From NCBI RefSeq assembly GCF_000149955.1, contig NC_030997.1, positions 62,001 through 126,000 of the forward strand: 64,000 nucleotides of DNA, read 5' to 3'. Each line of letters begins with the position of its first letter. Position 1 is the first letter of the stretch. This document shows positions 34,059 through 39,999 of the stretch, piece by piece. The position numbers and the translations under genes are program-made. The notes under the pieces are model-generated. The model saw only the letters and a list, made by a program, of their open reading frames with translations. It was not told the DNA's origin and did not search any database. The DNA comes from Fusarium oxysporum f. sp. lycopersici 4287. Lineage: Eukaryota > Ascomycota > Sordariomycetes > Hypocreales > Nectriaceae.

Positions 34059-35218
34059 TTGAAAACGAAGTCTTAGATGATTTCAATCTTTTGCCATTGT
34101 TTCTTTTTGCTCTGTTGTTAATTTATAGTGTCGCTGGCAATGGTCATACCTAGCATCGTTGTGACTAGTTTCTTCCATTTTAGCATTCCTTATCCACTAC
34201 CCCTTCCTTTCGAATAAATGATAGCCTGAGGAGCATAGGATATAACCTAATTTATATTACTTATTCTTTAATAGAAAGAAAATTAATAATATTACTTAAT
34301 ATATTAATTTAGCACTGGAGGTTTAGGAGGAATAGATAAGTCTTACTATCTGGCTTACTTCCCCCATGTTCCGATAAGAAGTTTTTCATTACATGCCAAC
34401 CAACTTGAGATGCAAGTCATGCAACCAAACATATCAAAATCCATTTCCATTCTTAGAGATCATTTCTTGTCGCTCTAAGCGTATCAATATTACAAAACAC
34501 AGCTTATGCTCTTTGTTTCCTGCGAGCCTGGTTCTTGCCAACACCATCATACATGCCAAAGTCAACTAAACTGACTTCCCACAGGCGCCACAGTTATCCT
34601 AGATACTTAGAAACAGGTTTTAAATGCCTGTAACAGCTTATGGGGCCACATCATAGGAGTCATTATGCACAACGGCGCGTTTTCATCACTCCTTCTTCGC
34701 CCATGATGGAATCTACAAACAGAGGTGGGCACACCTTATGCGAGTCTCTGACCACAGTAATGATGTCGTATCATTCAAGTACAGCTAGCAGGCAATTGGA
34801 GCAATGAAGACCCCGTAAACTTGCAGCCAAGCCTTTGGTGTGGTCAAGAGACGTGTCGAGGCCCCCTAGGTGACGAGACATGCAGCCAACAGCATCCAGC
34901 ACTCGCTTGCCTTTTCCTAATATCGAATAGCTTCATGCCTGGCTTACCTTACACCTTCCCTTATGGGGTACATGTTTCTGCTGTTGGGTTGCTATGCGTT
35001 GTAGTGGCTTCCACCAAGTGTCATACCACCATCACATCCAAGCAGACTGTGGACTACCTATTTTGGGCACCAAATCGTCGGATATTTCCCTGGGAATTTA
35101 CCAAGGCAAGTTTCCTTATCGTTACGTTCGCGCTGCCTTTTGCGACCCATTCCTGCCCATTTGCGCTCTGTTCAGCGTTTTCTCACAGCATCTCCACGTC
35201 TTGTCCCGAAACAGCACT
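34059..35218. other. Intergenic, 1.2 kb, partly AT-rich
   Basis: 34230-34320 is strongly AT-rich. Frames from 34821 and 34994 run into the next gene but have no supported upstream start. This marks the left edge of the accessory island. Confidence 0.4.
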
Positions 35219-36189
35219 ATGTCACAGATACCATCAAACTATCAATGCCAGTGTAAATCCTGTTCTACTAGTAAATACCACACTCGCTCAGTAGCTAAGT
35301 CTTGCACAAACCAAATATCGGCTCAGGAGCAGCACGCCGGAGTGCAAGCTTCATCGCAGCTGGGGTCACGGCAATCATCACACCCAACCAGTGGCAGAAA
35401 GGAGCATCTGGTATCAAGGCTCCTGCAATCTATCATTCGTTATTGGATCTTCATGACGCTGGACCAGCAGGTACTCAGAAGCCAAAGCCAGCCTGGCGAC
35501 ATACCTTCCAGTCCTGCAACTACTCTCAGCAATGACAACACGAGTGATGGAGGGTCTACCACCAGTCTTTCCAAACATGATAGATCCTCGGATATTGAAG
35601 AAGAGTCAGTGGATGGTTCAGTGAATGAAGGAGAGTCAATGAGCCAAACGGATCCCGCCTCGAATGAAGATGCAGATCTAACAAAGTTCACCTTAAAGAG
35701 TCTTTTGTTAGGTGAGGAACTCAAGAGGCTCCAAGTCTGGAAAACATCCTTTTCCAACGACGAGCTGGATAGACTACCTACTATCAACCACGAAGTCGCA
35801 CAGAGTGTACTGAAATGCTTGACGAACGTGGCCAACATACTGATTGAAGGGACAAGTCAGTCATCACCTACTTCCAATCCTTGACCGCGGTATTTGCTGA
35901 TACACCAACAGAGGAATGGCGAATCAGATCGGAGCCAGATGATCTTAAGACTGAAGGGGTATTTCTAGAGAGTCTACTGGAAGAGATTGAGACAAAGGCA
36001 TCGGAATCCAATGTCGAAAACGAGGCAATGACGGATTGTAGTGGTATTTCAGAGTCAGATGAATCTTACCTGACCATTGGGAATCCAAGCTTGATCAAAG
36101 ATCTCAAATATGAGATCGACAGACTTCAAATGCTTTCTCACTCTTTGCGCCTTGGAATGAGGACCGGAGTCATATTTACGAATAGCTGA
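35219..36189 (+). CDS. Hypothetical protein of accessory island
   Basis: Two exons, 35219-35855 and 35912-36189, joined by a GTCAGT...ACAG intron, give 304 aa from ATG MSQIPSN. The frame is open further upstream but without a clear start. Residues 1-45 have several Cys and Gln; about 85-145 is acidic and Ser-rich; about 150-210 is helical (LTKFTLKSLLLGEELKRLQVW). The C-terminus, EIDRLQMLSHSLRLGM, resembles the (Y/D)xIxRLxxLSxxIR helix found near the N-terminal regions of many fungal incompatibility-type proteins. No enzymatic domain is seen. It is convergent with the receptor-like gene at 36292-38204, about 100 bp apart. A relation to the amyloid-motif pair is possible but only positional. 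Confidence 0.6.
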
Positions 36190-36291: not shown

Positions 36292-38204
36292 CTAGTCAAT
36301 AATCTCCTGGCATTCCATGTCATTCATTTCACCACGCTTAACCATTTCCCTGAGAGGACTAATGACCGACTGATAAAAGTTTCGCTGGAACATTTCATAG
36401 TCGCTTTGTTCATCGTCGCTGCTTTCGCCGTAAGCCATGCAGTATCGAACTGCCTCCTGGTATTGAACACTTGTCTCGGTTCCCAGGCGACTCAATTCCT
36501 TATCCAGCTGTTGCTGTATAATCTGCCCTTTGAGCTCCTTCCAAAGCCCAAGCTCCAGAAGAACATGTCCGAGATGGTACATGAACCTTTTTGGCCTTGT
36601 AGATCCGTGATCAAACATGGCGGCCCGCAGAAATGGCATCTTTTCAGATTCGATGGGATAGAATTTGATGTCCTGCGTACCCCATCCATCACCAAGCCAT
36701 TCTCGCCAGCCATATCGGAGAGTCGCTTCGGCAAGCTTTAAAGCCAGTCTGAAACGGTTGTTTCGAAGCGATCGACTACGGTGGAAGAGAGTGAGATAGC
36801 GCCGATATTTCTTTCTCTTTTTCGACTGCAGCCTTCTCTGATCCCCCTCCCGTATAATTTTGGAGAGAGTGAGAGGTTTGCAACTTGTTTTTGGTCGCTT
36901 ATTCTCATCCAGGTAGAATATCTGGTGGCCGCTATCCCGATCAACAGCGATACACATAGCTAGACGATCGCTGCCTTGTGCAAGACTTCCAGGGCATACC
37001 TGAACCCGACAAAATTCGGCAACGTTTTGTGGTGTTTGTATGCGCTGATTTGACGACAACGCAGTGCTAGATGAGTATCCAGAGTCACGGCGCCAACGTT
37101 GACGAAGCCCATTCATTACTGTCACCAAAGGCGAGGACGGCTCTGAGTAGACAGCGTCACTCTCGTCTCCCGGAAGGACCAATCTGGAGTGAGCCTCAAA
37201 CCAGATGTAGTCTCCCTTGTTAAAGTTGGACTCTATAGCAACGTGATGGCCAGTGATGGCAACGTCATTTGGATTGATACAAAGCGGCTCCTGTTCTTGA
37301 ACTGGCACAAGTCCAACAAGAGCTGTATGTCCGTGTGCTTGCTCTTGGCCGTTCACTGGGCAAGCTTCGCACAAGTGACGATAGAGCGTTTTCGTGGCTG
37401 AACTTGAAATGTAAAGCCTGGTATAGCTCGTTGTTGATTGAGATGCTGGTTGACAGTTTGAAAGCCGGTAGACCAAGCTTTCAATAGCGGAAACATCAAA
37501 TCCAATCTTTCCGATGAGCTTATCGAGGTCCTTGAAGATCCTTGAATTTCGAATTTTACGTTCACTTGATCGACCCTATCGCCCGTTAATTAGCGTTCTG
37601 ATGTGACAGTGGATTTGATTCTTACCCGACTTCGAGTGGGAACTCGCGAGAATGAACTGAGAGCATCCTGTAGTTTGTCACGTATACTGACAAGTCTATG
37701 TTTCAGATCCTCTATGCTGTTTTCACCTGTTGGCCCTTCGCTTTGCTGAGTCTTTTTCGTAGCTGTAAACCATTGTTCTACAAGCGCCATGTGAACCTTA
37801 ATTCTCACTTTCTGATCACTGGCCTTGTCATAGAGTTGCTTCACACAAGTCGCCTTCATGTGAGGAGTTCGGTCTAGCAGTATTTCGTATTTCTCCATTA
37901 GACTGCCGTTAATCTCACTGATGTAATGGGAATCGGCCTCTGAAATACCCGGTGGCAGTTCTTGCATGACCTCTAATTCAAAATCTTCATCCTGATCCTC
38001 GTCAAGAGCCGGAATCTGTCCAAAATAGAAATCTTCCTTGATGGTAGATGACGTTGAGGCTACTGCTTGAAGGGGACTAAGATTCAAGGTTTTTATGACA
38101 GCTTTTCGAATCTCTAGTCGGTCTCCGATGGCTCCGTTGACTTGCAACGAATTGTGATTTGCTTGGTTTCCAGAAGCATGGTGAGAAATCGTTTGAGAGT
38201 CCAT
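36292..38204 (-). CDS. DUF7580-like protein with N-terminal HET-s-type amyloid motif (putative receptor)
   Basis: Exons are 37626-38204 and 36292-37575 (620 aa), separated by a 50-bp GTAAGA...GATAG intron with phase 0. Residues 13-24 read NQANHNSLQVNG, closely matching both repeats of the divergent gene at 38905-39999. The rest is: an acidic linker, a helical segment (about 80-260) and a C-terminal block (about 420-540). That block contains FCRVQVC, LSKIIREGD, RFRLALKLAEATLRYG and WGTQDIKFYP, the order I associate with fungal DUF7580 proteins. No Walker A (GxxxxGKS), WD or ankyrin repeats are seen, so it is not a standard NLR. By analogy with NWD2, the N-terminal motif would template aggregation of the partner upon activation. 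This role is inference. Confidence 0.75.
38133..38168 (-). other. Amyloid-like motif, receptor copy (residues 13-24)
   Basis: Encodes NQANHNSLQVNG. It aligns without gaps to NQTFDQALQING and NEARNQSIQVNV of the neighbouring gene; six of twelve positions are identical with the first. The core Phi-Q-Phi-N resembles the VQLGN/VLIGN cores of the HET-s repeats. Confidence 0.7.
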
Positions 38205-38904
38205 TTCGAGCTATCCAATAAAGCTGGCGTCGAATAGAACATGGAAAGGGTGTGGGGGAAAAGAAACCAGCAATACATATGACAGTTTCATCAGATGATC
38301 AGTTGCACAAGTAGGCGGAAAGATAAGTCTGGGACCCCAACAGCCCCGAAATTTGAGGCTCGGTCTAGTGGAGGGAATCAAATGCAGAAAGGCGAAGCCC
38401 CCACTGATATTTCCAATGGTATGCATAATCGTTCGTTCGCAAAACAATATTATCATGCATGTCATCAAATAGTCGTCAGCCTGGTTGGTTGCCCGATGTG
38501 ACGGGACTGCATTGCATTGCATTTACACGTAGCTTTGGAAAACAGCCCATGAGCTTTGCTTACACCACGATAAATTGACCCCTCTTCTGCCAAAAGCATC
38601 GCAGCCGACCGCTGAATGGGTGTACATCTTTCCAATCAAGTAGCTTAAAATTGAACAGCTGATCAAAAGGTGTATTTACTCGTGTGCGGCTGAAGAAGAT
38701 GAGCCAACGTGGCCGTAATCAACACCAGTCAGCATGCATGCCTTGAGGGAGGGCGGAAATTCCCTCTGCAGTCTTTTTAGCCGCATCAGTGTACTGAGTT
38801 TGTAATTTGAAGTGGCTGTAGGCCCGGACCCGTTGTTCTAAATTCTTTGGCTTTCAGTCTGCCTAGCCACTTAGCAGTAAATCCACTTTGCCAATACTTC
38901 CACC
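38205..38904. other. Shared divergent promoter, 0.7 kb
   Basis: The only regulatory space between the two amyloid-motif genes; head-to-head arrangement allows co-expression. The frames inside (38211-38522 and 38295-38501) overlap on opposite strands and are not supported. Confidence 0.5.
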
Positions 38905-39999
38905 ATGGTGACTTTCATTTCCAATTACACTTTGTCTGTTATTGTGACTAACGCATTTATACTTGCAGATTGACCCTATCGGAGCAGTAGCAGCCGCTAC
39001 AGCCTCAATTGATCAATCCCTCAGACTTATCCGACGAGTCTCTACGGCCATCGAGATCCATAAGAATGGCAGGAAAGACCTAGAGTTTATTTTCGAGGAC
39101 CTCTCCAGTATTGCCCAAGTTATAGAACTTGTCCAAACCATCGAAGAAATCAGAACCAAAGGAGTTCTAAAAGCCTTAGCAAATATGCTAAAACATGCTG
39201 AAAAGCTAGATGATCATGTCAAACAGGTCAAAAAGAAGTCCAGCACCGGCTCTTCATTTCGTCGCGCCGCTCACCACTTCATGACTGGCCCTGAAGATTT
39301 GGAGCATACCAATAGAGTGGTCAAAGAGCTAGCATCTCTCAAGACCACGCTGATCCTTCATATTCAAGTTGCTCATGTTGGCCTTGTTGTTCAAAATGAT
39401 CAGGACAAGCGGGCAAACCCGGGTTGCACTCACATGTTGGACAGTTCGGTTCTTCATGAGGTCAATCAAGTTGTTGAGCAAAGACTCGGCAAGGGACAGG
39501 GGCTAAAGATAGCTGAAGTCCTTCGAGGCAAGAGCGCAGACGGTATGCATTGTGGCTATTCTGTCATGGCAGATAGCTAACCTAGCTTCATAGATGATGG
39601 AATGATTCGCCTTTCGCAAGAGGAGTATGAATGCCTCGTATTTCATAGCTTGGACGATAGTCAATCCAACCAAGAACTCGGTACGTCATGGCCTGATGGG
39701 ACATCGTTTGGGAAACTGACACTACACAAGGTACAATTCGCGTTGCCAATAACCAAACCTTTGATCAAGCATTGCAAATCAACGGATTTATAAGCGACGA
39801 CTGGATGGAGTTTGCTCAGAACCTGACTATCGAGGATAATGAAGCTCGCAACCAGTCTATCCAGGTAAATGTACCTACTAGGACGGAGCATTTCGCCGAG
39901 CTTTTGGCTGTCAGAAACAAAACTCTCGAGATGATGCCTAGTTCGGCTTGGGCACCAGCCCCACTGATGCCAAAGCAGAATATTAGAAGCCTGGAATGA
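38905..39999 (+). CDS. Helical-domain protein with two C-terminal amyloid-like repeats (putative executor)
   Basis: Exons are 38905-38907, 38969-39542, 39594-39680 and 39731-39999 (310 aa). The start is an ATG-only exon: no ATG lies in frame near the ATT GAC CCT entry, and a GTGACT...CTAAC...TTGCAG intron joins them. Residues 1-200 are helical: a small-residue-rich first helix (IGAVAAATASI), two heptad-like helices (about 40-90), and LILHIQVAHVGLV. They resemble the N-terminal HeLo-like/SesA-type domains of fungal cell-death proteins. After a linker come repeats at 229-240 (NQ...QING) and 258-269 (NE...QVNV), 29 residues apart. By analogy to HET-S, the repeats would fold as a beta-solenoid and activate the helical domain at membranes. 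The domain class is uncertain. Confidence 0.72.
39751..39873 (+). repeat. Two imperfect amyloid-like protein repeats
   Basis: Repeat 1 is 39751-39786 (residues 229-240) and repeat 2 is 39838-39873 (residues 258-269). Shared positions are N1, Q7, Q10 and N12, with aliphatic residues at 9 and 11. Similarity is at protein level; the DNA copies differ widely, so they are old and kept by selection. Confidence 0.65.

Follow-up and report, generated by a model that had tools for sequence, protein, structure and literature searches.

A divergent Fusarium oxysporum gene pair sharing a short motif: a candidate amyloid-linked unit of a kinase-like sensor and a HeLo-like executor

Here we describe a divergent gene pair from Fusarium oxysporum f. 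sp. lycopersici 4287. It lies in a 64,000-nucleotide stretch (contig NC_030997.1, positions 62,001 to 126,000 of the forward strand; hereafter the window) that is part of a 61.2-Mb genome. The two proteins, named executor and receptor after the roles proposed for them, carry three copies of one short motif: two (r1 and r2) near the C-terminus of the executor and a single one (r0) at the N-terminus of the receptor.

Gene models and the shared motif

The genes, the region between them and the motif copies are located as follows (window coordinates):

38905..39999, plus strand: executor gene, 310 amino acids; exons 38905-38907, 38969-39542, 39594-39680 and 39731-39999
36292..38204, minus strand: receptor-like gene, 620 amino acids, two exons; match to P0001 over the full length
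38205..38904, unstranded: divergent upstream region common to both genes, 700 bp from ATG to ATG
39733..39792, plus strand: motif repeat r1, residues 223-242, placed by invariant residues and strands of the P0028 model
39820..39879, plus strand: motif repeat r2, residues 252-271, placed by invariant residues and model strands 29 residues after those of r1
38127..38186, minus strand: single motif r0, residues 7-26, strict core in homologues, tail predicted to be disordered

In our splicing model the plus-strand gene begins at ATG 38905, contains introns 38908-38968, 39543-39593 and 39681-39730, and ends with the last base of its stop codon at 39999. Each intron starts with GT, ends with AG and contains CTAAC or CTGAC, the branch-site consensus. 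The 310-residue product is 95% identical to the annotated F. oxysporum protein P0028 over 100% of the query. The least secure piece of this model is the start exon, as another start is annotated in some homologues. The minus-strand gene runs from ATG 38204 to the last base of its stop codon at 36292 with a single intron (37625-37576), and its 620-residue product is 96% identical to the annotated F. oxysporum protein P0001 at 100% query coverage. The head-to-head arrangement with a 700-bp common upstream region, described in the original prediction, thus holds when the 700 bp are counted between start codons. A 50-nucleotide GT-AG-bounded stretch within r2 (39865-39914) is apparently spliced out in the annotated P0036 and P0037. 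We considered it as an alternative intron and disfavour it because it has no CTAAC or CTGAC site and because the read-through protein sequence is kept into Dothideomycetes; alternative splicing at this place could delete r2.

The motif copies themselves were confirmed at the places given by the original prediction, with NQTFDQALQING at residues 229-240 and NEARNQSIQVNV at residues 258-269 of the plus-strand protein, and NQANHNSLQVNG at residues 13-24 of the minus-strand protein. All three share a core with fixed spacing (first Asn to Gln, 8; Asn to Asn, 10), which we wrote as the strict pattern N-x-[ASTC]-x3-[SAG]-x-Q-x-N. The frequency of this pattern per shuffled protein was 0.002 (plus) and 0.00225 (minus), and the two-plus-one arrangement was seen in 0 of 20,000 shuffles. 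Because the pattern was picked after the data had been seen, these figures count for less than independent profile tests. From 20 executor repeats, with receptor sequences excluded, we built a profile; it detected r0 in 21 of the 27 receptor proteins, in 20 of them as the sole match. Its scores ranged from -2.3 to 12.3 bits, and 16 of these 21 proteins exceeded 4.3 bits, the highest score among 1080 shuffled proteins; the other 5 did not. The reverse profile, made from 11 receptor peptides, was weaker: the second executor repeat often scored 6-13 bits (best of 1100 shuffled proteins, 4.7), and the first was often inside the noise. When the two families were compared profile to profile (20 of 27 receptors and 24 of 36 executors aligned), a single match emerged, between r0 and r2 (E 0.0013, probability 18%, 22 columns). 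The motif thus appears, at the level of sequence, to be the only thing that the two families have in common.

Copies elsewhere in the genome were not found: the r1-r2 region, used as a protein query, matched this locus alone, and among 62 fetched loci, including HeLo-like and DUF7580 paralogues, the motif profile passed the inclusion threshold only in those covering this pair. Sequence searches for relatives in the PDB gave best E values of 1.2 (motif) and 0.15 and 0.049 (family profiles), none of which was accepted. Past the 3' end of the minus-strand gene, two plus-strand open frames (34931-36189) possibly represent a third gene of the locus; the larger one has no Pfam match at E<=0.001.

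Conservation and pairing in other fungi

Of 27 receptor homologues, 22 have the strict r0 core. In P0027 a Cys replaces the first Asn of the core, and the gene models of P0013, P0020, P0021 and P0024 start downstream of r0. Mean column identity is 0.72 over residues 13-24, 0.29 over residues 25-56 and 0.68 over a conserved stretch at residues 241-350. These values were calculated from 19 homologues, namely the 20 of 27 that were aligned less P0021, which was removed because its model is without r0.

On the executor side, the double motif is present in 33 of 44 homologues, 32 with at least two strict copies and one (P0069) with two copies of a relaxed core; in 5 others r1 alone is intact, and 6 end before r1. 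Seven motif residues (N229, A235, Q237 and N239 in r1; N258, Q266 and N268 in r2) are invariant across 24 aligned executors, chosen from 36 with short models excluded, whose overall identity falls as low as 33%. Conservation of the whole repeats (0.64 and 0.61) is about as high as in the helical domain (0.58-0.60); it is lower (0.40 and 0.32) in the stretches that separate and follow the repeats. Executors with both repeats reach the Dothideomycetes, in Zopfia rhizophila (P0067) and Ampelomyces quisqualis (P0070), in a profile search that scored the best 8000 candidates only. P0070 has three strict copies, the extra one at residues 24-43 near the N-terminus, and is either a genuine protein with three motifs or two adjacent gene models fused into one.

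Adjacency of the two genes in other fungi was also borne out. In 12 of 27 receptor clusters the longest contig has the same size as that of an executor cluster, and in 8 of those 12 the locus numbers are consecutive with the executor's (for example F53441_5505/5506, FSPOR_10519/10520 and G7Z17_g230/g229). A metagenome contig size of 4704 bases is common to one receptor fragment and one executor fragment. Judged from contig sizes and locus numbers in these 12 of 27 clusters, evidence that bears on neighbourhood and not on gene orientation, the two genes remain neighbours in several genomes of Nectriaceae.

Domains and charges of the two proteins

Three further features were assigned within the proteins:

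38972..39376, plus strand: HeLo-like helical domain, executor residues 3-137
37459..37940, minus strand: helical bundle, receptor residues 89-232, with the intron lying within it
36334..36942, minus strand: DUF7580 kinase-like domain (PF24476), receptor residues 405-607

Assignment of the executor to the HeLo-like class is weakly supported. PF17111 scores 18.9 bits against the window protein (family cut-off 27.2); it matches 12 of 24 executor homologues at E<=0.01 and none of 6 distant executors at E<=0.1, and is annotated in P0055. The structure model contains a helical part resembling a four-helix bundle (4HB), and a profile comparison of this part with the HeLo frames of the genome found no homology (E 0.19). 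In the P0028 model, strands occupy residues 223-227, 230-231, 236-238 and 242 in r1 and 252-256, 259-260, 265-267 and 271 in r2, so that the secondary structure of r2 follows that of r1 at exactly 29 residues (block means of the predicted local distance difference test (pLDDT), 61-83). The structural matches that were listed for this protein contained no HET-s chain, a result with which the fold is still compatible.

The charges of the repeats are complementary in register. Residues facing each other in r1 and r2 have opposite charge in 21 cases and like charge in 1 (29 distinct pairs, 33 proteins), with related sequences not independent of one another and P0028, from F. oxysporum, adding none. 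Complementarity peaks at offset 0 (0.69; at most 0.41 elsewhere). At position -1 the signs are swapped between P0053, P0058 and P0064 (E/R) and P0070 (R/E), and at +3 between Fusarium-type sequences (D/R or E/K) and P0070 (K/E). Charged residues make up 2.4% of r0, 14.5% of r1, 17.9% of r2 and 26% of the rest of the receptors, and the share of S/H/N in r0 is 46%, versus 16% and 26%. A low-charge trend has been reported for the r0 motifs of NOD-like receptors (NLRs) (PMC4518210).

The receptor begins with a tail that is predicted to be disordered (in the P0001 model, residues 1-80 have a pLDDT of 25-29). The helical bundle behind it showed no homology to the HeLo frames of the genome in a profile comparison (E 0.67). 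PF24476 matches the spliced receptor at E 8.3e-6 (26.1 bits, below the cut-off of 27) and the receptor locus in the genome search at 28.3 bits, above it, and the receptor profile matches five paralogous DUF7580 frames at E 2.8e-12. Among homologues, PF24476 is found in 9 of 20 at E<=0.01 and in the precomputed annotation of 9 of 27; P0026 has no match at E<=0.1. The NLR-type partner known from HET-S/NWD2, the system that the original prediction cited, is not what we find: neither the receptor nor 20 homologues have a NACHT or NB-ARC Pfam match, the partner being DUF7580 kinase-like, and no NLR was found near the pair in the 20 frames scanned of the window's 39 of at least 180 residues. A Pkinase match is likewise missing from the receptor (E<=1) and from 20 homologues (E<=0.01), and present in the paralogous frames. 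The HRD motif marks the catalytic loop of active kinases; no HRD-type sequence was found in the catalytic-loop region of the receptor alignment or of the paralogues, and the kinase-like domain of the receptor looks inactive, or degenerate.

Elsewhere in the genome, we scanned 10 frames taken from 25 DUF7580-matched places; 4 of them combine HeLo with a DUF7580 match, which is under the Pfam cut-off in 2 of these 4 fusions. These fusions suggest that the two kinds of domain work together and that the split pair may be an amyloid-linked version of the same joint action. In a 996-residue frame (L012, G000:C11:2138694-2139758), a DUF7580 match is joined to a PNP_UDP_1 domain, an effector class of fungal NLRs. 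Equal-scoring DUF7580 matches occur at four places each (L008-L011 and L026-L029; C3 twice, C6 and C70), which suggests recent large duplications; the open frame of L027 is shorter than those of L026, L028 and L029.

Proposed mechanism, alternatives and known systems

The original prediction ascribed the motif to the HET-s type, or HET-s-related amyloid motif (HRAM), an assignment that we do not uphold. HRAM as published is a 21-residue motif with a perfectly conserved Gly at position 19 (PMC4518210). Here the core is shorter and the invariant Gly is absent: a Gly directly after the conserved Q-x-N occurs in 20 of 23 r0, 30 of 33 r1 and 7 of 33 r2 sequences. The profile comparison with HRAM that it had proposed, run with PF11558 and PF17108, gave no match in the window proteins (E<=1) or in five motif peptides (E<=10, where HMMER filters may drop weak matches). 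A locus on the window's own contig (G000:C12:1785968-1787832; L063, L066, L067) encodes an executor of HET-S type; its other strand encodes a protein whose N-terminal HET-S motif lies 1.6 kb away. The HET-s profiles detect this locus, which serves as a positive control for their failure on the pair's motif. Conversely, the pair's motif profile reaches at most 2.0 bits on the HET-S loci of the genome. Two copies of a second HET-S-type gene (L064, G000:C3:34068-34250; L065, C6:4451134-4451316) have equal scores and identical printed termini, lie 34 kb and ~139 kb from contig ends, and each adjoin a 341-residue frame. Judged by this definition and these profiles, the motif is not HRAM as published. 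Nor does it have the GxQxG core of the RIP homotypic interaction motif (RHIM)/PP, as S/A-x-Q-x-N mostly surrounds the conserved Q, or the GDQN pattern of an F. oxysporum scan as given in the available text of PMC12261475. What is HRAM-like is the arrangement that the original prediction described, an executor with a double C-terminal motif (33 of 44) beside a partner with a single N-terminal one, and also the in-register charge complementarity. Taken as a whole, that earlier interpretation is partly supported.

We consider it likely that the pair is a two-gene cell-death unit made of a pseudokinase-type sensor and a HeLo-like executor and linked by amyloid templating. This reading is based on the gene models, motif conservation, pairing, the DUF7580 class, the charge pattern and the predicted repeating strands. 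The 620-residue protein, with its disordered r0 tail, helical bundle and degenerate kinase-like domain, would act as sensor or relay, and the 310-residue protein, with its HeLo-like domain and the r1 and r2 repeats in its C-terminal tail, as executor. A stimulus felt via the kinase-like part would cluster the sensor, and the clustered r0 tails would stack into a beta-solenoid amyloid seed. Templated by this seed, r1-r2 in the executor would take on its fold and so free the HeLo-like domain to attack the membrane. From the pattern as a whole we infer amyloid formation, the direction of templating, membrane killing and the stimulus; the pair may also have a role in incompatibility. Four features of the HET-s system, as described in the accessible part of PMC4518210, support an amyloid: strands 29 residues apart, charge complementarity, a charge-poor r0 and a short disordered tail. 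Weighing against this, r0 and r1/r2 from the same species are no more alike than mismatched ones, and 10 species pairs gave no signal of concerted evolution. Defence-system profiles returned no relevant match (best E 0.0037).

The same motif could instead be a docking device, with r0 as an extra rung on a two-rung beta-solenoid of the executor that is stable and not amyloid; the two proteins would rest as a one-to-one complex and signal by release or conformational change. The executor model, which places the repeats as strands inside a monomer, and the single r0 opposite two repeats fit such a complex; the layout, however, with a tail motif that is double in the HeLo-like protein and single and uncharged in its partner, is that of the amyloid systems reported in PMC4518210, and the r0 tail is predicted to be disordered, so we regard docking as unlikely though worth keeping in view. 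The roles could also be reversed: the 620-residue protein, with its helical bundle and pseudokinase, would be a killer of the MLKL type, and the small HeLo-like protein would amplify or brake it via the motif; the signal would then run from the small protein towards the large one, or in both directions. The structural comparison behind this idea has low model confidence, a very large root mean squared deviation and a Z score common for helical bundles, the receptor bundle has no sequence homology to HeLo (E 0.67) and it sits after a tail of more than 80 residues, which together make the reversal improbable. That two co-regulated genes converged on similar short N/Q-rich tails, with no direct interaction, would suit a short (~14 residues) polar core, a profile-profile probability of only 18% and the lack of co-variation by species between r0 and r1/r2. 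Against it stand N, Q and N at fixed spacing in three places, cross-profile scores that beat 1080 shuffles in 16 of 27 receptors, an r0 more conserved than its flanks and a pairing maintained in several genomes, and we give convergence very little credence.

Amyloid templating from sensor to executor would place the pair near several known systems, cited here from the portions available to us. With HET-S/NWD2 and the HRAM systems (HELLF/FNT1) it shares adjacent genes, a HeLo or HeLo-like executor with two C-terminal copies, a charge-poor single N-terminal copy on the partner and in-register charge complementarity (PMC4518210, PMC7889193). It differs in that its partner is DUF7580 kinase-like and theirs an NLR, and, from HRAM, in a shorter core that keeps N-x7-Q-x-N in place of the invariant Gly19. 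In the HRAM survey an NLR was adjacent in 98 of 155 executors, with 57 others (PMC4518210). As in RIPK1/RIPK3-MLKL, a kinase-family partner with a short amyloid-type motif stands beside a protein with a domain like the MLKL 4HB (PMC12881547, PMC5485727); unlike there, the executor itself would receive the amyloid link, the RHIM core is absent and the kinase-like domain looks inactive. We offer this likeness as an analogy that does not imply homology. That fungal cell death can involve a kinase-like module is already known, because a 2025 review describes HeLo-like domains fused to kinase or pseudokinase domains (PMC12881547). The pair resembles these fusions, of which the genome holds at least four, in coupling a kinase-like domain to HeLo, and differs in having the killer domain on a separate protein linked through the common motif. 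In the same species, a 2025 scan of strain Fo5176 reported 23 family-profile motifs and one new pair, with 124 hits in all (PMC12261475). That recently found GDQN pair joins a probable NLR to a SesA-domain protein and has a different motif pattern (PMC12261475); the 124-hit list could include the pair described here. Our literature search, which covered few subscription papers and no bioRxiv preprints, found no described kinase-like amyloid partner in fungi, and in the portions of the literature examined the sensor side of fungal amyloid cell-death pairs is an NLR.

On balance we lean towards a necroptosis-like pathway of fungi with a pseudokinase-type sensor in the place of an NLR. This sensor would trigger the HeLo-like executor by templating an amyloid through a new family of motifs, which has the core N-x-A-x3-S-x-Q-x-N and spans Sordariomycetes and, on the executor side, Dothideomycetes. 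If so, it would add a motif class that is unnamed in the accessible part of the same-species scan (PMC12261475), and it would show a fungal layout close to RIPK3/MLKL. An amyloid motif carried by a kinase-like sensor would uncouple amyloid signalling from NLRs, as a plug-in module independent of them, and would offer a tractable comparison with RIPK/MLKL necroptosis.

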